Origin: Candidatus Enterovibrio altilux
Lineage (GTDB): Bacteria; Pseudomonadota; Gammaproteobacteria; Enterobacterales; Vibrionaceae
Direction of reading: 5' to 3'
DNA: 64,000 nt
Assembly (NCBI RefSeq): GCF_002381345.1
Contig: NZ_CP020660.1
Location: forward strand, 1,426,001-1,490,000
Part shown: piece after piece, positions 5,103 to 55,537 of the stretch
Position numbering within the stretch: position 1 is the first letter of the stretch
How the letters are laid out: each line of letters starts with the position of its first letter
Program-made: the position numbers and the translations under genes
Notes under the pieces: model-generated
Databases searched by the model: none
Told to the model about the DNA's origin: nothing
The model's input: the letters and a program-made list of their open reading frames with translations, nothing else

Positions 5103-5203
5103 GGGAGTTATTAATTGTTTTTAATGCGGGTGAGGCGGACTATAAAACTAATGGTTTGCTTATTGCAAAGTTTTCAATGCTACATACAATACGTTAGCTT
5201 TAT

Positions 5204-5345
5204 GTTCGTAGAGGTGCTCTAGTCATCAGTATTGTTAGGGTGATACCTTCAAGGACATGTGAAAAGGAAGGAGTGTCGCAGTAGAAAGAAGTGTATCAAG
5301 TTATTCTACTGGGGTTGTGATCGAATAGATACGACTCTGCAATAA
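5204..5345 (+). promoter_or_regulatory. lysine riboswitch (L-box) candidate
   Basis: Conserved lysine-riboswitch blocks appear in order: GTAGAGGTGCTC at 5209-5220, CAGTATTG, GGAAGGAGTGTCGCAGTAG near 5265-5284, ACTGGGGTTGTGATCG near 5308-5323, and a closing ACGACTCTGC at 5331-5340. The first and last blocks pair as P1 (GTAGAG with CTCTGC). It lies about 120 bp upstream of an NhaC-family transporter. That is the known arrangement for LysW-type lysine transporters in this group. I could not fold it, and I see no clear downstream terminator hairpin, so the control mode (transcription or translation) is unclear. Confidence 0.75.
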
Positions 5346-5360
5346 TATTGGAGTTTAATT

Positions 5361-5387
5361 ATGAAGCGTTACTGTAGTTTTTATTAA
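5361..5387 (+). other. possible 8-codon leader ORF after the riboswitch
   Basis: ATG at 5361 opens MKRYCSFY and stops at 5387. A GGAG lies about 6 bases upstream of the ATG, better placed than the ribosome-binding site of the transporter itself. It may be a leader peptide or chance; only the spacing supports it. Confidence 0.25.
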
Positions 5388-5466: not shown

Positions 5467-7047
5467 ATGAATTTAGTCAATTTTTCCTCTTCTGCACTAT
5501 CAATATTACCCGCTATTTTAGCGTTGAGTATAGCAGTTATTACTCACCGTGTTTTGCTTTCATTGGGTTTAGGTATAATCTCTGGTGCATTGTTGCTAAA
5601 TGATTTTTCATTTTCAGCAACATTATTGTATATCTCATCACATGTCTTGGATTTGTTTGTCGACAACGGAGGCGTTAATTTTGACAAAATGAGTATTGTG
5701 GTTTTTCTCATGTTAGTTGGAATGATCACTGTTTTAATTACACTTTCTGGTGGAACGCATGCATTTGCAGCATGGGCACAAAGACGAGTAAAGAGCAAGC
5801 GTGGTGCGAAACTACTTGCTGTGTTTTTGGGCGTATTTATTTTTATTGATGACTACTTTAATAGTTTGACTGTTGGTGCCATTATGCGTCCTGTCACGGA
5901 CCGATTTCACGTGTCACGCGCGAAGTTAGCTTATATTCTAGACTCTACTGCAGCTCCGATGTGTGTAATCATGCCCGCATCAAGTTGGGGCGCGTATATC
6001 ATTACCGTTATTGGTGGAATTTTGGTGAGTCATGGTGTAACTGAATACAGTCCGTTGAGTGCATTTGCACGCATGATTTTAATGAATTTTTATGCTATTT
6101 TTGCTTTGTTAATGGTGTTTGCTGTTGCTTGGTTTCAAATGGATATTGGTTCAATGCGTTATTTCGAGTATCAGGCATTAACGGGTAATCGTCTGGGTGA
6201 TGGAAAAGATTCAACGTCATCGTTGGATAACGAATTAGGCATTGAAGAAAGCAATAAGGGCCACGTGTCCGATCTTATTGTGCCTATTGCTGTATTGATT
6301 GTTACTACTATTTTTTGGATGATTTTTTCTGGGGCTGAAATACTTAAAGCGAACGCTAAATCTTTCTCAATTCTTGGTGCTTTTGAAAATACTGATGTCG
6401 GTATGTCTCTTCTTTATGGTAGTGGTTTAGGTTTGTTATCTGCACTTCTAACTGTTTCTAAGCAGCATTTATCCGTGCCTGAAATTAGCTATGCTATGTG
6501 GGTGGGTGCAAAATCGATGTTTGGTGCGATTATGATCTTATTCTTCGCATGGATAATTGGTAGTGTGATTGGTGATATGGGTACAGGTAAGTTCTTGTCG
6601 ACACTTATTCATGGTAATATTCCACACCAATTACTGCCGGTTATTTTATTTATACTCTCAGCTGCTATGGCATTCTCTACGGGCACATCATGGGGTACGT
6701 TTGGCATTATGTTGCCAATCTCTGGCGATTTATCGGCAGTAACAGACATTACTTTAATGCTACCAATGTTGTCGGCGGTTTTAGCTGGTGCTGTCTTTGG
6801 TGACCATTGCTCTCCGATTTCAGATACTACGATTTTGTCTGCAACCGGCGCGCATTGTGGGCACATGGACCACGTGTTGAGTCAGTTGCCGTATGCGTTG
6901 GCGGGTGCGATTATTGCCGCGGTAGCTTATCTTGTATTGGGTTTCACTGAATCACTCACTATTGCATTATTAGTTGGTTTTTGCATATTCATATTAGTAT
7001 GTCTCATGTTAATGTGGTTATCACGTCGCCCTAAAAAATATTGCTAA
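5467..7047 (+). CDS. NhaC-family Na+-coupled transporter, probable lysine transporter (LysW-like)
   Basis: A 526-residue inner membrane protein with about a dozen hydrophobic segments. It has NhaC-superfamily features: FIFIDDYFNSLTVGAIMRP near residues 130-150, DSTAAPMCVIMPASSWGAY near 160-180, FSTGTSWGTFGIMLPI near 400, and GDHCSPISDTTILSATGAH near 440-460. Most family members exchange Na+ and H+. The subfamily that follows a lysine riboswitch is thought to import lysine. The L-box-like leader at 5204-5345 therefore favours lysine uptake here, though that is an inference from context. The gene appears intact. It stands alone, with IS-derived sequence upstream and zapG convergent downstream. 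Confidence 0.85.
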   Translation: MNLVNFSSSALSILPAILALSIAVITHRVLLSLGLGIISGALLLNDFSFSATLLYISSHVLDLFVDNGGVNFDKMSIVVFLMLVGMITVLITLSGGTHAFAAWAQRRVKSKRGAKLLAVFLGVFIFIDDYFNSLTVGAIMRPVTDRFHVSRAKLAYILDSTAAPMCVIMPASSWGAYIITVIGGILVSHGVTEYSPLSAFARMILMNFYAIFALLMVFAVAWFQMDIGSMRYFEYQALTGNRLGDGKDSTSSLDNELGIEESNKGHVSDLIVPIAVLIVTTIFWMIFSGAEILKANAKSFSILGAFENTDVGMSLLYGSGLGLLSALLTVSKQHLSVPEISYAMWVGAKSMFGAIMILFFAWIIGSVIGDMGTGKFLSTLIHGNIPHQLLPVILFILSAAMAFSTGTSWGTFGIMLPISGDLSAVTDITLMLPMLSAVLAGAVFGDHCSPISDTTILSATGAHCGHMDHVLSQLPYALAGAIIAAVAYLVLGFTESLTIALLVGFCIFILVCLMLMWLSRRPKKYC

Positions 7048-10069: not shown

Positions 10070-11345
10070 ATAATTTGGTATCTTAATTTGCATTCAGCTA
10101 GTAAATCCCAGCATAATGAGCAATTAAACGATTAGTTTTGTGTTAGGTATGCCTAGCCCTATCAACTTATTGAACGATTTTATCGTGGTGTAAGTTTAAT
10201 CAATCTAAACATTGTAATCTCTTCAGTCCAATGTCTTCCAAGCAGTTTTTTGATTCGAAGCATTACCATTTTTGATAGGGAACGTTTATGGTAACCATAC
10301 CTTGTTTTTCAGTGTTGATTGAAATTGTGTAACTTCTAGTAACTAACCGCTAAATTATGCGGATGATTTTGTTCCTAAAAAAGTTGCTCCTTTTTTTGGT
10401 GGTATGAGTGGACTTACCCGTTGAATACGAGGGATTTTATAATATTATCTGATGTCGTAAGCACCATCAGCTGATATTTCATTGATTTTTGGCGGGTTTG
10501 TTTGAGCAAGTTAGGTAACATTTCACCGTCAGTCATATTTGATGTATTTAACTTAACCGCAATGATTGCATGCGTATTTATATCTACTGCTAAATGTAAC
10601 TTGCGCCAAACTCGCCGTTTCCCATCAGCGCCATGCTTTTTTATTTTCCATTATCCTTTACCGTAGATTTTGAGCCCTATAGAATTAGTGGCTAAGTGTT
10701 GGATGGTTCCTGTATTCTTCGTCTTGAATGTAACTTCAACTGTTTAGGCTCATTTGCTAATGCATTAATAGTAAGAGCATGACAATGGCAGTTGAACCAA
10801 TTTAAGAACAAAATTAATAAATTTTTGCAGATCTCTCAATAGCATTGAAAATACGCATTTTACCATGAAGGTCGCCGTAATAGCTAAGTCGCTAAATAAA
10901 CAAAGTCTCCCAGGATTATCCTGTTAGTTTGATTTTATAGCGGAATAACTTCTTCATCAATTCACAATGTTAGTGAGCCACGATTGATTAAAGCTTGATT
11001 GTACTGCGTCCAGTTAGTTGTTTTGTAGAGAAGATTGTTCATAAATCTGAATATTTAAGCGAGCTTAACTGTTTAGAGTCTTGGTTGAAAAATTAGTTCC
11101 TTTATTCAAAAAATAAAGCCGGTTACCATAAACGTTCCTTATGTAGAGACAGTAATGGTTAGAGTCAAAAAATTACTGAGGGAACATTGGGCCTAAAGGA
11201 TCACACAGCTTAGGCTAGCTAAGCCTACGGCACGATAAAAGAATTCAATAGATGGACAGGACTAGGTATGCCTAATACGAAAGCGATTGTCTAATAGTGA
11301 ATTATGTCGGGATTTGTTATCTGAATGCAAATTAGGAAACAAAGC
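10070..11345 (-). mobile_element. IS903-like composite, near full length (about 1.28 kb)
   Basis: The minus-strand portion runs from a degraded right end (about 10070) through a broken transposase to an intact-looking left end AAATAAAGCC at 11111-11120. At 11121 it continues into plus-strand GGTTACCATAAACGTTCC and the transposase 3' end, closing with a second right end at 11345. The same join is found in other copies. It separates rpsI from the dead bc1 genes. Confidence 0.85.
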
Positions 11346-11689
11346 TTCTTATAGGTCGTATTTCAACTAAGTAGGATAGTGATGAAAGGTGATGAATAAG
11401 CGGTCAGTGACTCACCCAAAGATTTCAGGTTTCCGGATATCCCCAATAAATTTCAAATATCATATATTAAAACCTGCATCTTCACATTGATTGAATATAG
11501 CTAAAAAATGACGTATTTTTCATAGTTATTGTAAAAAATAGTTTTATTTTTTAAGGGTGTATTTGTGTGTTATTTAAAGATAATTCACCTTATGGCATGC
11601 AATAAATTTTTCCGAATTAGTCGTACGCTTTATGGACGTGTATAAGGACAGTTTGTAAATTTTCGTGGGAGCACATGGGAGAATATTGG
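11346..11689. other. non-coding stretch before dead petA
   Basis: About 340 bp of AT-rich sequence. In relatives this would be the rpsI-petA intergenic region. I see no frame or hairpin that I can support. Confidence 0.4.
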
Positions 11690-15294: not shown

Positions 15295-16566
15295 GTAAAT
15301 TAAGATTGAATTTGAATTCAGATAGTAAATTTCCACATGATTCATTATTAGATAATTATTTTCGTGTTAGATAGACTTAGCTCAGTTAGCTTATCTAATG
15401 TTTTTATTATGGCGTAAGTTTGGCTAATTTGAGCATTTAATTTTTTAAGTTCAATGTTCCTCCTAGTAGTTTTTTAACTCAAAACATTGTCGCCCCTAAT
15501 AGGAAGCGTCTATGGTAACTATATTTCATTTTTCAAGACTAATTTAAACTGTATAACTTCTGGAAACTGACCGCTAAATTACGCGGGTAATCTTGTTCCC
15601 AAAAAATTGCTTTTTTTCATGGAATGAGAAAACTGCTTGTTTAATATGCACTGTTTAATAACACTTCCTGATATCGTAAGCACCATCAGCTTATATTTTA
15701 TTAATTTTTTGGCGGGTTTGTTTGAAAAAGTTAGATAGCATTTCACTGTTAATCATATTTGATGCACTAAACTTAAAAGCAATGATTGCATGCGTATTTA
15801 TATCTACCACTAAATGTAACTCGCAGAAGATTTACCGTTTTCTATCAGTGCTATGCTTTTTTACCTTTCATTCTCCTTCACCGTAGGCTTTGAGCCCGTA
15901 TAACCAATGGCTAAGAGCTGGGCGTTTTCTTTATTCTTTATCTTGAACGTGACGTTAATCGGTCGGACTCGTTTGTTAAGGCATGAATCGTGAGGGCATG
16001 ATAATGACAGTTAAGCAAGTTTACGAACAGAAGTAATGAATTCGTGCAGACTTCTCAATAGTATTGAAAATGCGGATTTAACTATGAAGGACGTCGTAGT
16101 AGCTAAGATGCTAAATAAACGAGGTCTCTCATGATTATTCTGTTTCGTTTGATGCCATAGCTAAATAGCTTATTCATCACTTAATAATGTAAGTGAACCA
16201 TGATTGATTTAAGCGTTATTATGCCGCTTTCAGTTAGTTGTTTTATAGCGAAGATTGTTCATAGACCTGAATATTTAAGTTAACTTCACTGTTTAGAGTG
16301 TTGATTGAAAATTTAGTTCCCTTATGTAGGAAATAAAGCTGGTTACCATAAACGTGACCTAGCAGAGACAGCAAAGGTTAGAGTCAAAAAACTACTGGGA
16401 GGAACATCGAGCTTAAGGGAGCACGCAACTCAGATTATTGAAACCAAAACCATGATAAAAGCATTAAATAAGTTGACCGGGCTAGGTATGCCTAAAACAA
16501 AAGCGCTTGTTTAATCGTTAATCATGTTGGGATTTTCTATTCTAACTTGAGTTAGGAAACAAAGCC
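15295..16566 (-). mobile_element. IS903-like composite, near full length (about 1.27 kb)
   Basis: The minus-strand copy starts at a degraded right end near 15295 and runs through a broken transposase to the left end AAATAAAGCT at 16331-16340. Plus-strand GGTTACCATAAACG begins at 16341 and runs to a second right end at 16566. Same organisation and length as the copies at 10070 and 53751. Confidence 0.85.
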
Positions 16567-30539: not shown

Positions 30540-32027
30540 AACTTTGTTTCTTAATGTGAGCTTAAATAACAGATTTCAACATGATCAAATAATAGTTTTT
30601 ATTGTAGGCAGACCTAGCTTTTTCAGATTATTTAATATTTTTATCATGGTATCGTTTTAGTTAAGTTGAGTATTGTGATTCCTTAGACTCGACGTTCCTC
30701 CTAGTAGTTTTTTAATTCGAATCCTTGACGTCTTTGATAGGGGAGTGTTTATGGTAACCATACTTCGTTTTACACTGCTTATTTGAACCGTATAACTGCT
30801 GGTAACTAACAACAAAATTACGCGGATAATCTCGTTTTCAAATTTTTTGGTGAGATGAGTGAGATTGTCTGGTGTCGTAAGCGCTATCGGCTGATTTTCA
30901 ATGAGTCTGTTTAAGCAAGCTAGGTAACACTTCATCTTCAGTCACATTTGATGCACTTAGCTCAGCAGCCATGATTTCATGCGTATTTATGTCTACCGTT
31001 ACATGTAACTTGCGTTAAATGAACTATTCGCTTGCACTATAGATTTTGAGCCTCGTAGAATTAATAGCTAAGTGTTGGATGATTCCTTAGGTTCAATGTC
31101 CTTTCTAGCAGTTTTTTAGCTTGAATCATTGCTGTTTTTTTAGAAAAAGTTAATAATAACTTATTTTATTTTTAAATATGGAGGCTAAATTTTCGAGCAA
31201 CATACTAAATAATTAGGCTCACTTCAATATTTAGGTCTATGAACAATTTTCGCTACAAAATAAACAACTGAAATCAGTATAATCGAGTTTTAATTAATCA
31301 GTGGTTCACTGACATTGTGGATTTATGCAGAAGCTATTTAGCTATGGAATCAAACCAAGCAGGATCATTCTGGGAGCCCTCGTTTATTTAGTGACGTAGC
31401 CATTACGATGCCCTCGCGGTTCAATACGTATTTTCAATGCCATTGAAAGATCTGCAAAGATTTATGTATTTTGTTTGCAAACTTATTTAACTGCCATTGT
31501 TATGCCCTCATTATTCATGCATAGCAAACAAGTTAAAATGGTTGACGTCACATTCAAAACGAAAAATGCAGGAAGCATCCAGCATGTAGTCATTCATTTT
31601 ACGGAGCCTAAAGTTTACGATGAAGAAGAATGAAAAGTAAAAAACATGGTATTAATGGGAACGGTGAGCCTGGCGCAAGTTACATTTAGACGTAGATAAA
31701 AATATACATGAAATCATTGGTGCTGAGTAAATTTCATCTCATGTGACTGACGGAGAAGAATTATCTACTTTGTTTAAACAGACCCGCCGTAAAATCAGCA
31801 AAATATTAGCCAATAGTGCTGATGATGCCAGACAGTGTTGTAAGTCAAAAAACTACTGGTAGGGATATTGAGCTTAAGAGATTACAATGCTTAGATTAGT
31901 GAAATTTATACGATAATAAAAGTATTAAATACGCTGATAGAACTAGGTGTGTCTAAAATAAAAGCAATTATTTAATCGTTAATCATGTCGGTATTTACTA
32001 TTTGAACTCGAATTAGGAAATAAAGCC
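30540..32027 (+). mobile_element. IS903-like composite of three fused pieces
   Basis: 30540-31090 is a minus-strand right half starting with a right end (AACTTTGTTTCTTAA). At about 31090 it jumps to a second minus-strand 3' fragment, which meets a plus-strand left end near 31155-31175 in the reverse of the usual composite join. The plus-strand copy then runs to a right end at 32027. No open transposase frame; an internal deletion removes part of the 3' half near 31840. Confidence 0.75.
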
Positions 32028-33537: not shown

Positions 33538-34304
33538 GGCTCTGTTTCCTAAATCATGGAACTAACTTTTCAATCATCACTTTAAACAGCTAGGCTTACT
33601 TAAATATTCAGGTCTATGAATAAATGTTTTCTACAGAATAACCAACTGGAAGCAGTATAATTAAGTTTTTATTAATAGCGGATCATCAATATTTTAAATT
33701 GATGAAGAAGCCATCCAGCTACGGGATCAAACTAAGCCGGAGAATCATGGAAGATCCTGTTTATTTAGCGACTTAGCTATGATGATGGTTCGCATGGTTA
33801 AATGCGTATTTTCAATGCTATGGAAAGGCTAGCAGGGATTCATGAATATTGTTTTCAAACTTGTTCAATTGTTGTTGTCATGCCCTCACTATTTATGCAT
33901 TTGCAAGTGGGCCAAAATGGTTAACGTTACGTTTAAGACAAAAAAGGAGCCATCCTGTGCTTAGTCGTTGATTTTGCGGGATGCAAAGTCTATGGTCGAG
34001 GCGAATGGAAAGTAAAAAAACATGACACTAATACAAAACGATGAGTCTGGCGAAAGTTGCATTGAGCGGTTAGCCATCCGAAGTTATATGGTTCAAATAA
34101 GCATTGTAAAACGAGGCATGGTTACCATAAACGTTCCCTATAAGAGGCGGCGACGTTTTCAGTCAAAAAAACTACTCAGAAGAATATTGATCTTAAGAGA
34201 TTACAATACTTAGATTAACGCAACTTACGCCATGATAAAAGAGATTGTTTAATAATCAATCATTTTGGAATTGGCTACTTGAACATGAATTAGGAAACAA
34301 GACC
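33538..34304 (+). mobile_element. internally deleted IS903-like element with both ends
   Basis: Left end GGCTCTGTTTCCTAAATCAT at 33538 and right end GAATTAGGAAACAAGACC ending 34304, 767 bp instead of about 1050. About 250 bp of the transposase middle is missing near 34070, joining the LHLAV region directly to the SYQKLYGS region. Not coding-competent, but the ends are good enough to be substrates in trans. Confidence 0.8.
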
Positions 34305-36952: not shown

Positions 36953-38074
36953 GGTTTGGTTTTCTAATCCGTGTTCAGATAGACAATCCTTACATGATGA
37001 ACGATTAGACGATCGCTTTTGTGTTAGGCATACTTAACTCTGTCAGCTTATTTGATGCTTTTACCATGGTGTAGGTTCTACCAACCTGAGAATTGTAATT
37101 TCTTAAACTCAATGTTCATCTGCGTAGTTTTTTGATTCAAAACATTGTTGTCTCTGACAATGAAGCTTTTTAATAACTATCTTTCATTTTTAAATGCTGA
37201 TTTGAATTGGTTTTGTTTACTGAATCAGAGAACTAAATGATTAAGTTACGTTCTAAATAGCTAGATGCGCTTAAATATTGAGTTCTATGAAGAAGCCTAG
37301 CCGATAAAACAATTAACTGGAAGCAGTATAATCAAATTTTAGCAATCGTGGCTTACTAATATTTTGAATTGATGAAGACGCCATACAGCTATGGAATCAA
37401 ACGGAGCAAGATAATGCTAGGAGGCTTCATTTATTGAGTAACTCAGCCATTACGACGGGACTGATGGTTAAATGTATATTCTCAATACCATCGAGAGGTC
37501 TGCAAGGATTAATTAATTTTATTTTTAAACTTGCTCAACTACTGTTATCATGCCCTCACTATTCTTGCATTAGCAAGCGAGCCAAAATTTAACGTCACGT
37601 TCATGACGAAGAATAAAGGAATCGTTGAGTACTTAGCCATTGATTTTACGAGTTTAAAGTCTACGGTGAAGGCGAATGGAGAAGAAAAAAGCATGGCACT
37701 GATGAAAAACAGCGAGTCTGATGCAAGTGACATTTCGCGGTAGATATAAGTACGCATGAGATCATTGTTGCTGAGTTAAGTACATCAAATGTGACTGAAG
37801 GTGAAGCGCTACTTAACCTGCATAAACAGCCCGCCGAAAAATTAATGAAATATCAGGAAACGGAACTTATGACACCAGACAATGTGTCGAGTTAAACAAT
37901 TACTAGGAGGGACATTGAGCTTAAGGGATCACAACACCCAGATTGGTGAAACTTACGCTATGATAAAAGTATTCAATAAGCTGATAGGGCTAGGTATGTC
38001 TAACACGAAAATAAGCGTCTAACAGCTAACCATATTGGGATCTGCTATCTGCACTGGTATTAGGAAACCAAGCT
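36953..38074 (+). mobile_element. IS903-like composite, right ends outward
   Basis: A 256-bp minus-strand right-end fragment (36953-37208) is followed directly by a plus-strand left end at 37209 (GGTTTTGTTTACTGAATCAG) and a broken copy that ends with a right end at 38074. Open piece 37531-37743 covers the first catalytic Asp region out of context. The retained 3' fragment is slightly longer than in the standard join. Confidence 0.75.
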
Positions 38075-39967: not shown

Positions 39968-41223
39968 TAGCTTTGTTTTTTCATTCGCATTTGGACAGAG
40001 AATCCTAACGTGATTCACTATGAGATAATCGTTTGCGTGTTAAGTATACTTAGGCCTGTTAGCTTATTTAACGCTTCTACCATCGCGTAGGTTTCACTAA
40101 TCTGAGCATTGTGCTCTCTTAGGCTCAATGTCTCTCCGAGTAGTTTATTGACTCTAACTATTGCTGTTTTTGCTAGGAAATATTTATGAGAATTAACTTT
40201 ATTTCCTAAGTAAGGGAACTAAATTTTAAATGAATACTTTAAACAGCTAGGCTATTTAAAGTATTCATTTTATGAAAAATTTTGTTACAAACAACTAACT
40301 GGAAGTAGTATAATTAAGTTTTAATCAATTGTGGCTCGCTAATATTTTAGATTGATGAAGAAGTCATGCAACTATGGAATCAAATTAAGCTGGGTAATCA
40401 TGGAAGACCTCGTTGATTTAGTTGCTTAGCCATGACGGAGGTTTTCATGGTGCCATGTGCATGTTCAATGCCGCTGTGAGGTCTGCAAGGGTTCATCAGT
40501 TTTATTTCCAACTTTACTCAACTGTCACTGTCATGCCCTAGCAAGCTAAGTAATACAGTTAATGTTGCATTTAAAACTAAGACTAAAGGAACTATACAGT
40601 ACTTATCCATTGACTCTGCGGGGTTCAACGTCTGTGGTGGCGACGAATAGTAAGTAAAAAATTATGGATTGAGGGGGAGTGACGAGTCTGGCGCAGTTAC
40701 ACTTAACCGTAGGTATAACTACGTGTAAAATCATTGCTGTTGAGTTAAGTGCATAAGAGGTAACTGACGATGCAGTGTTATCTAATTTACTCAAGCAGAC
40801 CCGTCGAAAAAGTAATAAATATCCGGCGATGGATCTTACGACATCAGACAATATTACGAACCCGTTTGCATTAGACGCGGGGTTTCACTTATCGCACCAA
40901 GAAAAGGAACAACTTTTGGAAACGAGGTATCCGTGTAATTTAGTGATTAGTTACGGAAAAGTTATACAGTTCCAATCAGCATCGTAAAATGAGGTATGGT
41001 CACCATAATCTCTCTTTATTAGAGATGGCAATGTTTTGAGTCAAAACGCTCCTGGAAGGGGCATTAAGCTTAAGAGATTACAATGCTTAGATTAGCGAAA
41101 CTTCCGGTATGATACAAACGTTAAATAAGTTGATAGGGTTAGGTATGCCTAAAATAAAAGCGATTATTTAATTTTTAATCATTTTGAAATTTGTTATCTG
41201 AACGCAAAGTGAGAGACAAAGCC
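39968..41223 (+). mobile_element. IS903-like composite, right ends outward
   Basis: A minus-strand right-end fragment starts at 39968 (AGCTTTGTTTTTTCATTCG) and stops at TTTATGAGAATT, directly joined near 40196 to a plus-strand left end (AACTTTATTTCCTAAG). This is exactly the reverse complement of the join at 11120 and 16340. The plus-strand copy ends in a right end at 41223. Transposase frame broken throughout. Confidence 0.85.
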
Positions 41224-49034: not shown

Positions 49035-50115
49035 GGCTTTATTTTTTAATTTGAGTTAAAAATAATAAATTTCAGTATCATTTACTATTAGACAATCGCT
49101 TTTATTTTAGGTTTCCTTGGTTCTATCAGCTTATTTAACGCCTCTATCATTTCGTAGCGTTTTCTAATCTGATCATTACGATTCCTTAAGTTCAATGTTT
49201 CTTCGAGAGGCTGTTAACTTGAAATATTATCGCTTTGACAGAGAACGTGTATAGTTACTATTCTACGTTTTTTAATGTTGATTGGAACCGTATCACCGCT
49301 GGTAACTGGCCGTTAAATTATGCGGATGACTTCGTTTTCCAAAAATTATTTCTACTTTTGGTGGGATAGGTAGAGCCATTCGTTTAATACGAACGATGTC
49401 GTTACATTGTCTGACGCCGTAAGCACTATTGTTTGATATTCCATTGATTCCTTGGTGTGTCTGTTTGAGCAAGTTAGGTAACACTTCACCTTTAGTTACA
49501 TTTGATGCATTGAATTCAGCAGTAATAACTTCATGCGTATGTATATCTATCGTGAAATGGAACTTATGCCAGACTAGCCGTTTTCCATCAATGCGATACT
49601 TTTTTATTTTCTCTTCGTCTTCATCGCAGATTTTGAGCTCCATAGAATCAATGAGTTCTTGCAGACCGTTCAACGGAATTAAAAATACGTATTTAACCAT
49701 GAGGGCTGCCGTAATGGCTAAGTCACTAAATAAACGAGGTTTTTCACAATTACCTTGCTTAGTTTGATCCCATAGCTAAATAGCTGCTTCATCAATTCAG
49801 AATGTTAATTAGCCACGATTGATTAAAGTTTGACTATACTGTTTCCAGTTAGTTCTTTTGTAGCAAAGATTATTTATAGGCCTGAATATTTAAGTAAGTC
49901 TAACAATTGAGAGTGTGGTTTTTAAAATGTAGTTTTCTTATTTAGGCAATAAAGTCAGTTAGCATAAATGTTCCCTAGTAGAGACGGTAATATTACGAGT
50001 CAAAAATTACTTGGAGGACATTGAGCCTAAGACATTAGCATACCAAAATTGTCAAAATCTATGAATGATACACAAGTTAAATAAGCGGACAGTGCTAAGT
50101 ATGCCTAAAGTAGAA
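49035..50115 (-). mobile_element. IS903-like composite, right side truncated
   Basis: The minus-strand copy runs from a right end at 49035 (GGCTTTATTTTTTAATTTG) to a left end at 49946-49955 (AATAAAGTC). It carries the longest transposase pieces in the window (49293-49700, including DIHTHEVITAEFNASNVT and DGKRLVWHK). At about 49956 it joins plus-strand AGTTAGCATAAATGTTCC and transposase 3' sequence, lost at about 50115 where the apt remnant begins. Confidence 0.8.
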
Positions 50116-53372: not shown

Positions 53373-53745
53373 CCGTTTCTGAAATCAGGGAACTACATTA
53401 TTAATTTACGCTCTAAACAGTTAAGTTGTCTTTAATATTCAAGTTTATAGACAAACTTAGCTACACAACAACTAACGGGAAGCAGTATAATAAAGATTTA
53501 ATTAATTGTGGTTCACTTAAACATTTTGTCTTAATGAATAAGCTATTTAGCTATGGGATTAAATTCAGGAGGGTAATCAAGGGAAGTCTCATTTATTTTG
53601 TGACTTAGCCATTACAACGTTTCGCATGGTCAAAAACGTATTTTTAATGCTATTGAGAAAGCTGCAAGGATTGATTAATTCTATTTTCAAACTTACTTAA
53701 CTATTCATGCATTAATAAGCGAGTCAAAACGAGTAACGCCATTTT
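53373..53745 (+). mobile_element. IS903-like 5' fragment
   Basis: Left end near 53373 (GCCGTTTCTGAAATCAGG) and the first third of the transposase, truncated where the next composite begins. The recR gene expected after ybaB is not seen here. Confidence 0.7.
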
Positions 53746-53750
53746 CTAGA

Positions 53751-55008
53751 TGCTGTCTTTCCTAATTCGAATTTAGATAGTAAATTTTAACATGATTTAC
53801 TATTAAACACTTGCTTTTTTATTAGCTTATGTAACATTTTTGTCATTGCGTAAGCTCTGCTAATCTGAGCATTATGATCTCTTGAGTTAAATGTTCTTCT
53901 GAGTAATTTTTTGATTTGAAATATTGCCGTCTTTGATAGGTAGCGTTTATGGTAACAATGCCTTGTTTTTTAATGCTGATTTGTACTGTATAGCTTCTGG
54001 CAACTGACCGCTAAATTACGATAATGATCTTGTTTTTAAAAGTTGCTCCCTTTTTTGATGGTATGAGTGGAACCGTTCATTTAATACGAACGGTTCCGTA
54101 AGATTGTCGGGTGCCGTAAGCACGATCGGCTGATATTTCATGAATCCTGTGGCGGGTATGTTTGAGCAAGCTAAGTAGCACCTCACCGTCAGTTACATTT
54201 GATTCACTTAATTCAGCTTCAATTATTTCATGTATATTGATATTTACCGGTTAATGTAACTTGCTGCAGACTCGCAGTTTCCCATCAATGCCATGCTTTT
54301 TCACTTTTTATTCAAATTAACCGTAAATTTTGAGCCTTGTAGAGTCAATGACTAAATGCTGGACGGTTCCTTTATTCTGTGTCTTCAACGTGATTTTAAT
54401 CGTTTTGGTTAGCTTGTTAATGCATGAATAGTAAGGGCATGACAATGATAGTTGAGTAAATTTGAAATTAAAATTGATGAATTCTTGCAGACCTCTCAAT
54501 GGTATTGAAAATAAGCGTTTAACCATGAGGTCTGTCGTAGTGGATCAGTCGCTAAATAAATGAGGTTTTCTACGATTACCTGGCTTAGTTTGATTCCATA
54601 GCTGAATGGCTTCTTCAGCAATCCAGAATGCTAGTGAATCACGATTGATTAAATCTTGATTATATTGCTTCCAGTTAGTTGCTTTGTAGTGAAGCTTATG
54701 CATAGATCTCAATATGGAAGTCAGCCTAGCTGTTTAGAGGGTTGATTGAAAATTAAGTTCCCTGATTTAGAAAACAAAGTTGGTTACCATAAATATTCCC
54801 TAGGAGAGGCAGCAAGGATTAGAGTCAAAAAACTACTGGGAAGGACATTGAGCCCAAAGAATCACACAGCTCAGATTAGCGAAATCTACACCATGATAAA
54901 AGTGTTAAATAAACTGATAAAACTAGGTCATGCCTAACACAAAAGCGATTGTTTAATAGCGAAGCATGTGGGGATTCGCTATCTGAACTCGAATTAAGAA
55001 ATAAAGCC
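53751..55008 (-). mobile_element. IS903-like composite, near full length (about 1.26 kb)
   Basis: Right end at 53751 (TGCTGTCTTTCCTAATTCGA), minus-strand broken transposase, left end AAACAAAGT at 54773-54781. It then passes directly to plus-strand TGGTTACCATAAATATTCCC and a transposase 3' end closing in a second right end at 55008 (GAAATAAAGCC). Best-preserved representative of the recurrent composite. Confidence 0.87.
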
Positions 55009-55021
55009 CCTCCCAGACAAA

Positions 55022-55537
55022 ATTCAAAAAATTATTCATCGCTTAGTTATATATTTTACAGGGCTAAAAATGTATGATGAAGAAATATGAAAAATAAAAA
55101 ATATGGTACTGACGTTGAAATGCTACTTAACTTGCTCAAATAGACTAGTCGTAAAATCGATGAAATATCAGCCTATGGTGCTTACAATACCGTTCGTATG
55201 AAACAAGCGGTTTCGCTTATCCCACCAAGAACAGGATCAACTGTTTAGGAAAGAGATCATCCGCATAATTTAGAGGCTAATTACTATAAGTGATCCGGTT
55301 CAAATCAGCATTGTAAAACGAGGTATCATTACTATAAACATTCCTTAGCAAAGACGGTAATGTTTTGAAGTTAAAAACTCCTGGGAGGGATATTCAGTTT
55401 CAAGGATCAGTAAAACTGGTGTCATGATGCAAGCGTTAAATAAGCTGATAAGATTAGGTATGCATAAAATAAAAGTAATTGTTTAATCGTCAATCACGTT
55501 GAAATTTGTCATCCTAACTTGAATTAGGAGGTTAAGC
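55022..55537 (+). mobile_element. IS903-like remnant, left half lost
   Basis: Plus-strand transposase from before the first catalytic Asp to a degraded right end near 55537, with an internal deletion near 55115 that joins the KHGTD region to the GEVL region. Confidence 0.7.

Follow-up and report, generated by a model that had tools for sequence, protein, structure and literature searches.

Scattered over the genome examined here is a family of IS-derived units that end in a right terminal repeat on both sides. It is highly probable that this family started from a nested insertion, that the two-right-end unit was then spread by transposition, probably with its own transposase, and that its copies decayed later. 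The stretch of DNA that was analysed, called the window below, comprises 64,000 nucleotides (bases 1426001–1490000 of contig C1) of a genome of 2,143,356 bases in 4 contigs. Among the 3 loci that a contig database yielded for a dnaX-like open reading frame of the window, that of Enterovibrio norvegicus is the nearest (66%). In the proposed mechanism, a simple IS5-family element (IS903-like, with ISVa2 as the nearest named label) would have inserted inversely into a copy of its own family, at GGTTACCAT in the 3' region of the transposase gene, so that the inner IS and the terminal ~224 bp of the outer one came to be flanked by two correctly facing right ends. The transposase would then have paired these two right ends in place of a left and a right end, and the ~1.27-kb unit would have left this site and multiplied to well over 100 copies, producing 9-bp duplications at its outer right ends and probably carrying its own working transposase while spreading. 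The buried left end would have been altered before most of the amplification, so that it was the complete unit that moved, and only rarely the inner IS by itself; decay of the unit copies would have followed.

The general order of a unit is IRR1, an inverted whole IS, IRL, then directly GGTTACCATAAACG... (columns ~824–1047 of the simple-IS profile), and IRR2, the fused segment being the last ~224 bp of a second IS copy. The unit at 53751–55008 (1258 bp), delimited by profile mapping and end refinement, has this order. Its inner whole IS lies at 53754–54779 (profile columns 1–1046), with a decayed transposase gene on the minus strand. The fused 3' segment at 54782–55008 on the plus strand starts with GGTTACCATAAA and ends in the second right repeat. 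The profile itself matches the whole IS on the minus strand at 53754–54779 and columns ~798–1047 on the plus strand at 54760–55006; in this reading the first bases of the segment match overlap IRL.

Three further units of the window are near-complete, at 10072–11346 (1275 bp), at 15302–16566 (1265 bp, with a decayed left outer end of repeat score 7.4) and, in reverse orientation, at 39969–41223 (1255 bp). The near-equal length pointed out in the preliminary description holds for four units, of 1255–1275 bp, and the fullest units in the sampled stretches measure ~1250–1285 bp. A unit at 1827–2859 has an internal deletion (1033 bp) and keeps both right ends, and another at 49037–50115, with its join at 49954, has a truncated 3' segment. 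A decayed and rearranged reverse unit occupies 30542–31839; its join, at ~31161–31166, scores below the cut-off, with a segment start that is readable by eye. All seven joins listed earlier were recovered, with IRL tips at 2634, 11118, 16338, 49954 and 54779 for the forward ones and at 40197 and 31166 for the reverse ones. Six of the seven pass the join score cut-off of 20, and the one at 31166 scores 18. In total, 6 or 7 of the 17 mapped left ends of the window belong to a double-right-end unit.

It is important to describe how the copies were sampled. A profile made from the whole unit, which is palindrome-like, did not keep the two strands apart; it was dropped in favour of a one-strand profile of the simple IS with 1047 model columns, in which the terminal GG and CC lie outside the model. 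The first mapping covered 100 stretches, mostly picked by the join, and the later one 133 merged stretches of 512,817 bases, window included. The choice of stretches deliberately biases the sample: in addition to the window, 98 were chosen by the join (from the 100 listed of 101 matches), 2 by whole-unit matches, and a further 59 by left ends outside the join list (from 80 of the 100 listed of 250 matches).

A pattern for the join, with up to 3 mismatches allowed, matches 101 times genome-wide, and a more degenerate version under the same limit matches 141 times; the reversed control gives 0 in both cases. The chimeric architecture, described previously for at least seven copies, is therefore borne out at a copy number far above seven. 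The 216 sampled left ends fall into 117 that continue into the 3' segment (the chimeras) and 99 that do not (the simple class), with bimodal scores and few intermediate values; by eye, 3 of the 99 still carry segment remnants. The left repeat itself was earlier given as AAACAAAGCC, but most copies read AAATAAAGCC instead (103 of 117 left ends).

The break point is also constant, as had been proposed for the scattered sites. At 115 IRL tips the outward-running segment reaches the 3' region, and 106 of these joins fall in the bins for columns 815–829, 102 of them in columns 820–824. The remaining 9 are spread over 8 other positions, with column 895 found twice, and have the look of ordinary nested insertions. 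Two stretches, L130 (C1:62022–64345) and L132 (C1:83960–87953), each contain a simple IS whose left tip adjoins another IS at column ~895, and may represent a further chimera family with two copies. In the window, at 36957–38074, IS columns 793–1045 follow the left tip at 37212; this nested insertion is likewise inverse and has the same geometry, and its join has no other copy in the sampled stretches.

Outside this genome, the join pattern was searched in 295 further Vibrionaceae genomes taken from a larger group; 34 of them have one match each vs 33 matches for the reversed control. A DNA search with the 1258-base unit in 40 relatives gives only short matches, in 6 of them, covering at most 205 of the 1258 bases. 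A reduced genome of the same genus (2.6 Mb, 40 contigs) has 133 transposase matches and 0 join matches (control 1).

We now consider the sequence states on the two sides of the join. Changes shared by the chimeras and absent from simple copies lie within the first ~85 inner IS columns and within the 3' segment. Compared with two Vibrio plasmid relatives, the chimera state is derived at inner columns 37, 40, 51, 56 and 85 and at segment columns 845, 853 and 860, while columns 909–911 are derived in part of the copies only. At inner column 37, 94 of 114 chimeras have A and 78 of 90 simple copies have T; at column 40, A is found in 105 of 115 chimeras and G in 71 of 93 simple copies. In the segment, G at column 845 (86 of 103) and A at column 853 (91 of 103) face T and G, respectively, in the 3' ends of whole IS copies. 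At least two of three segment markers are present in 91 of 104 segments vs 5 of 85 whole-IS 3' ends; the segment counts exclude 13 of the 117 chimeras, in which no segment was mapped. Nearly all chimera copies share one origin, and the earlier proposal that the chimera formed once and then spread as a unit is upheld by these markers, which are common to both sides of the join and polarised by the two outgroups.

The inner 5' end is simple-like in 5 of the 117 chimeras, which are either early branches, products of gene conversion or independent events. Segment markers 909–911 divide the units into groups of 31 and 63, with 23 of 117 in neither. Inner columns follow these groups more closely than they follow permuted labels, though to a modest degree (equalled in 13 of 500 permutations). 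Trees of the units (FastTree) are star-like and little resolved. Column 30 has A in 80 of 96 simple copies and T in both outgroups and in the chimeras; the A is thus derived in the simple copies, which means that the simple and the chimeric expansions come from different IS lineages. The divergence from the own consensus is 15.7% for the chimeras vs 17.3% for the simple copies (p 0.012), so the chimeras are perhaps the younger ones.

The 9-bp duplications that had been suggested as a mark of movement were looked for at the outer right ends, and they are present. Both outer ends could be traced in 63 of the 117 chimeras, and the 54 others were dropped; a further 11 with poor repeats were removed, leaving 52, while a looser repeat cut keeps 56. 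For the simple copies, 4 of the 46 traced were dropped and 42 used. The 9 bp outside the paired outer right ends of the 52 units match at 0.382 vs 0.299 after shuffling (z=4.1, reached in 0 of 1000 shuffles). The next best length is 5 bp (z 1.9, 25 of 1000, n=52), and the other lengths from 2 to 12 stay at or below 1.3. With increasing end quality (n=56, 52 and 43), the 9-bp z climbs from 3.8 through 4.2 to 4.5, whereas the 5-bp z falls from 2.1 through 1.9 to 1.2; this weaker 5-bp register has z values of up to 3.9 in sub-windows (n=40). Simple IS copies peak at 9 bp as well (z 2.75, 3 of 1000, n=42). A 9-bp duplication is presumably a mark of the IS903 group.

C-to-T and G-to-A are the commonest changes (5,076 of 9,531 in the full chimera inner copies). 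When transitions are given half credit, a score of 7 out of 9 or better is reached by 8 of 56 units, where 0.53 are expected; from the excess, we estimate that the duplication is still recognisable in only about a fifth of the units. Such duplications are known to be lost through decay, recombination and adjacent deletion (PMC11708052).

The unit at 53751–55008 provides an individual example, as it splits a simple IS on the plus strand. The left part of this host (column 6 on) is at 53376–53750 and the remainder at 55009–55531 (columns 394–497, then 583–1042). The left match (53376–53753, columns 6–401) ends at column 401, 3 bases inside the unit, and the right match starts at column 394, 4 bases past it. 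From these match ends, nine columns, ~390–398, are present on both sides. The left copy is TTTTCTAGA at 53742–53750 and the right copy is CCTCCCAGA, the first 9 bp of the remainder starting at 55009, both on the plus strand; the two differ at 4 positions, all of them C/T.

The constant join could also be thought to reflect independent nested insertions, in which whole IS copies repeatedly hit one hot spot and nothing with two right ends moved. IS-in-IS insertions do exist in this genome, as seen in the 9 other joins at 8 positions, and the five chimeras with a simple-like inner 5' end would fit as well. Several results argue against this reading, namely the 106 joins at one place vs at most 2 at any other, the derived markers common to both sides of the join, and the duplications at the outer ends. 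In addition, the left flank of IRR1 does not match the GGTTACCAT that would be expected there (0.268 vs 0.260 for permuted flanks, 58 units), which rules out independent insertions as the general explanation. The preliminary description had held that duplications confined to the inner IS, or join positions differing between copies, would point to such insertions; in fact duplications flank the outer ends and the join position is constant. Independent nested insertions are refuted as the general case and very improbable as an account of the family, although a few copies could have arisen independently.

An assembly artefact of a repeat-rich short-read genome is scarcely conceivable. The assembly was built from 250-bp reads, according to PMC6020299, which is the circumstance that would favour it. 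However, copies that match the unit at 53751–55008 over most of its length are just 71–79% identical to it, and the flanks of the units all differ, with 0 of 1953 pairs among the 63 units more than 60% alike on either side. Neither duplications at the outer ends nor the fitting halves of an interrupted IS are expected from misassembly.

The founder was presumably a nested insertion. Homologous recombination, an adjacent deletion or a self-insertion could have produced the chimera as well, followed by the same spread. A founder locus would show an IS 5' part that ends in GGTTACCAT and lies next to IRR1, and a search of the 513 kb sampled yielded none. A near candidate around position 34300 of the window was rejected, its break lying near column 808 by eye. 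Against these other origins, the fusion sits exactly at the tip of IRL, which is the outcome of transposition, the genome has further joins with this geometry, and a nested insertion needs no extra deletion. We regard the other origins as rather unlikely.

At position 7 of the inner, buried IRL, A is found in 103 of 116 chimeras, whereas G is commonest in IRR1 (34 of 56), IRR2 (34 of 56), the simple IRR (30 of 45) and the simple IRL (27 of 45). In a larger set of simple left ends, G is present in 52 of 96 and A in 40 of 96, and both relatives have G; the A in these 40 simple copies arose through decay. Ten of the 116 chimeras keep G, the unit at 53751–55008 among them. Position 18 has A in 69 of 117 inner left ends vs 16 of 99 simple ones. 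The contrast between A at the inner end and G at the outer ends indicates that the left end was changed before most of the amplification, while both outer ends were not. We take position 7 to be within the transposase-binding part of IS903 ends. The changed left end presumably worked poorly, and two right ends would have been favoured for that reason. A chimera-like 5' haplotype is found in 9 of 99 simple copies, at least 3 of which have segment remnants; this low number means that the inner IS rarely moved alone.

The transposase consensus (the query of the domain search was the majority sequence, in which X stands for one stop) belongs to the IS5 family (NCBIfam NF033579, E 8.6e-109; Pfam PF01609 and PF13737). 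Its amino acid identity is 79.7% with copies that carry the ISVa2 label and reaches 83.5% with a V. gigantis copy without a name. The terminal repeats, for which the V. gigantis and V. cyclitrophicus relatives were compared, are 18 bp long and start GGCTTTGTT..., a motif that we assume to be that of the IS903-like group. At present, each of 58 full inner copies has at least 4 in-frame stops, and none of the units seen in the 513 kb sampled is intact.

The gene has probably not always been in this state. In 60 full inner copies, transversions shared by at least 12% of the copies are distributed 3/6/19 over codon positions 1/2/3, to be compared with 352/358/376 for the rare ones (p 0.001 for shared vs rare), and with all chimera copies the shared ones are 5/6/17. 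The bias holds at sharing thresholds of 10–25% (p 0.003–0.03) and is absent at 8% (p 0.15). Simple copies have a like but weaker bias, of 18/13/26 in 22 full copies and 15/9/23 in all copies at 12%. The untranslated segment, too short to be more than a weak control, gives 5/3/8 at 10% and 2/2/3 at 12%. Fixed changes at codon positions 1 and 2 number 0 of 586 in the inner gene and 4 of 112 in the segment (Fisher p=0.0006), and those of the segment may predate the fusion. Judged from these substitution patterns, the third-position bias of the shared transversions suggests that the transposase of the unit was probably functional during the spread, which would favour autonomous movement over movement in trans.

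In the alternative, the unit would be non-autonomous and a related simple IS would act in trans on its two right ends. Simple copies of the family are indeed many (99 of the 216 sampled left ends) and their right ends are alike, and the shared transitions are without codon bias (138/111/117), which we assume to result from repeated decay of the C-to-T type. On the other side are the third positions of the shared transversions (19 of 28, or 17 of 28 with all copies) and the lack of fixed changes at codon positions 1 and 2 of the inner gene. The IS903 transposase presumably prefers its own element in cis. Spread in trans is quite unlikely in our view. Of the earlier suggestion that the unit was mobilised in trans through its two right ends, the use of the right ends stands, but the trans part is less supported, the unit's own transposase having probably been functional.

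The component parts of the unit are ordinary IS5-family parts, and the two-right-end arrangement was known before as constructs. With the IS903-like elements of the IS5 family (ISVa2 label), the unit shares a single DDE transposase, 18-bp GGCTTTGTT ends and the 9-bp duplication. Instead of the left and right end pair of a normal IS, the unit has two right ends and a second partial 3' end: the outer ends are both right in the 63 of 117 units traced at both, and simple copies have a left and a right end. In the 'double Ds' of maize, the ends of neighbouring or nested copies are used together. Such joint use of ends is common to Ac/Ds and the unit, but the outcome described for alternative transposition in Ac/Ds is rearrangements, such as duplications and inversions (PMC3744419 and PMC8225341), whereas that of the unit is an amplified family with a fixed join. 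For Mos1, an element with two IRRs is 26-fold more active in vitro than one with the natural pair (PMC4505599), and minicircles are formed by an IS2 that has two right ends (PMC3299598). Two right ends pair in these engineered constructs as well, but they are lab-built and belong to other families, whereas the unit arose and amplified in nature. IS1272 was considered as a precedent and set aside, its mechanism being different (PMC5678879). MITEs, short IS derivatives thought to be moved in trans (PMC3189936), share with the unit an IS-derived body and IS ends. Unlike a MITE or other non-autonomous derivative, the unit is ~1.27 kb long and has a whole, now decayed, transposase gene; unlike a composite transposon, it has no passenger DNA, the 3' segment following directly on the IRL tip. 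A search of the top-ranked titles and abstracts in open-licence PubMed Central found no natural amplified IS with two right ends.

The results suggest that a bacterial IS can switch its end usage and found a new, highly successful lineage from one nested insertion, and the sequence still displays how the former left end changed. The chances are about even that we are dealing with a natural, self-driving IS with two identical ends, where a captured right end replaced the left end, which then decayed as unneeded (or the decay of which locked the unit), and which became a major mobile element. If this is true, the family would be a natural counterpart of the engineered hyperactive two-right-end transposons. 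The Mos1 and IS2 constructs had shown such elements to be workable in the laboratory, and the family is evidence that competition among elements can yield one in nature.

For the luminous symbiont of the anglerfish Cryptopsaras couesii, 'Candidatus Enterovibrio luxaltus' CC26, PMC6020299 gives 672 IS5-family transposase genes, none of them complete and all classed as pseudogenes, truncated or without inverted repeats. In comparison with that account, many IS5 copies here do keep recognisable repeats. The words 'chimeric' and 'target site' are absent from the main text of that paper.

Finally, the window also contains a lysine riboswitch at 5201–5379 (Rfam RF00168, 63 bits), which is directly upstream of an open reading frame of 526 amino acids at 5467–7047 that is membrane-transporter-like.
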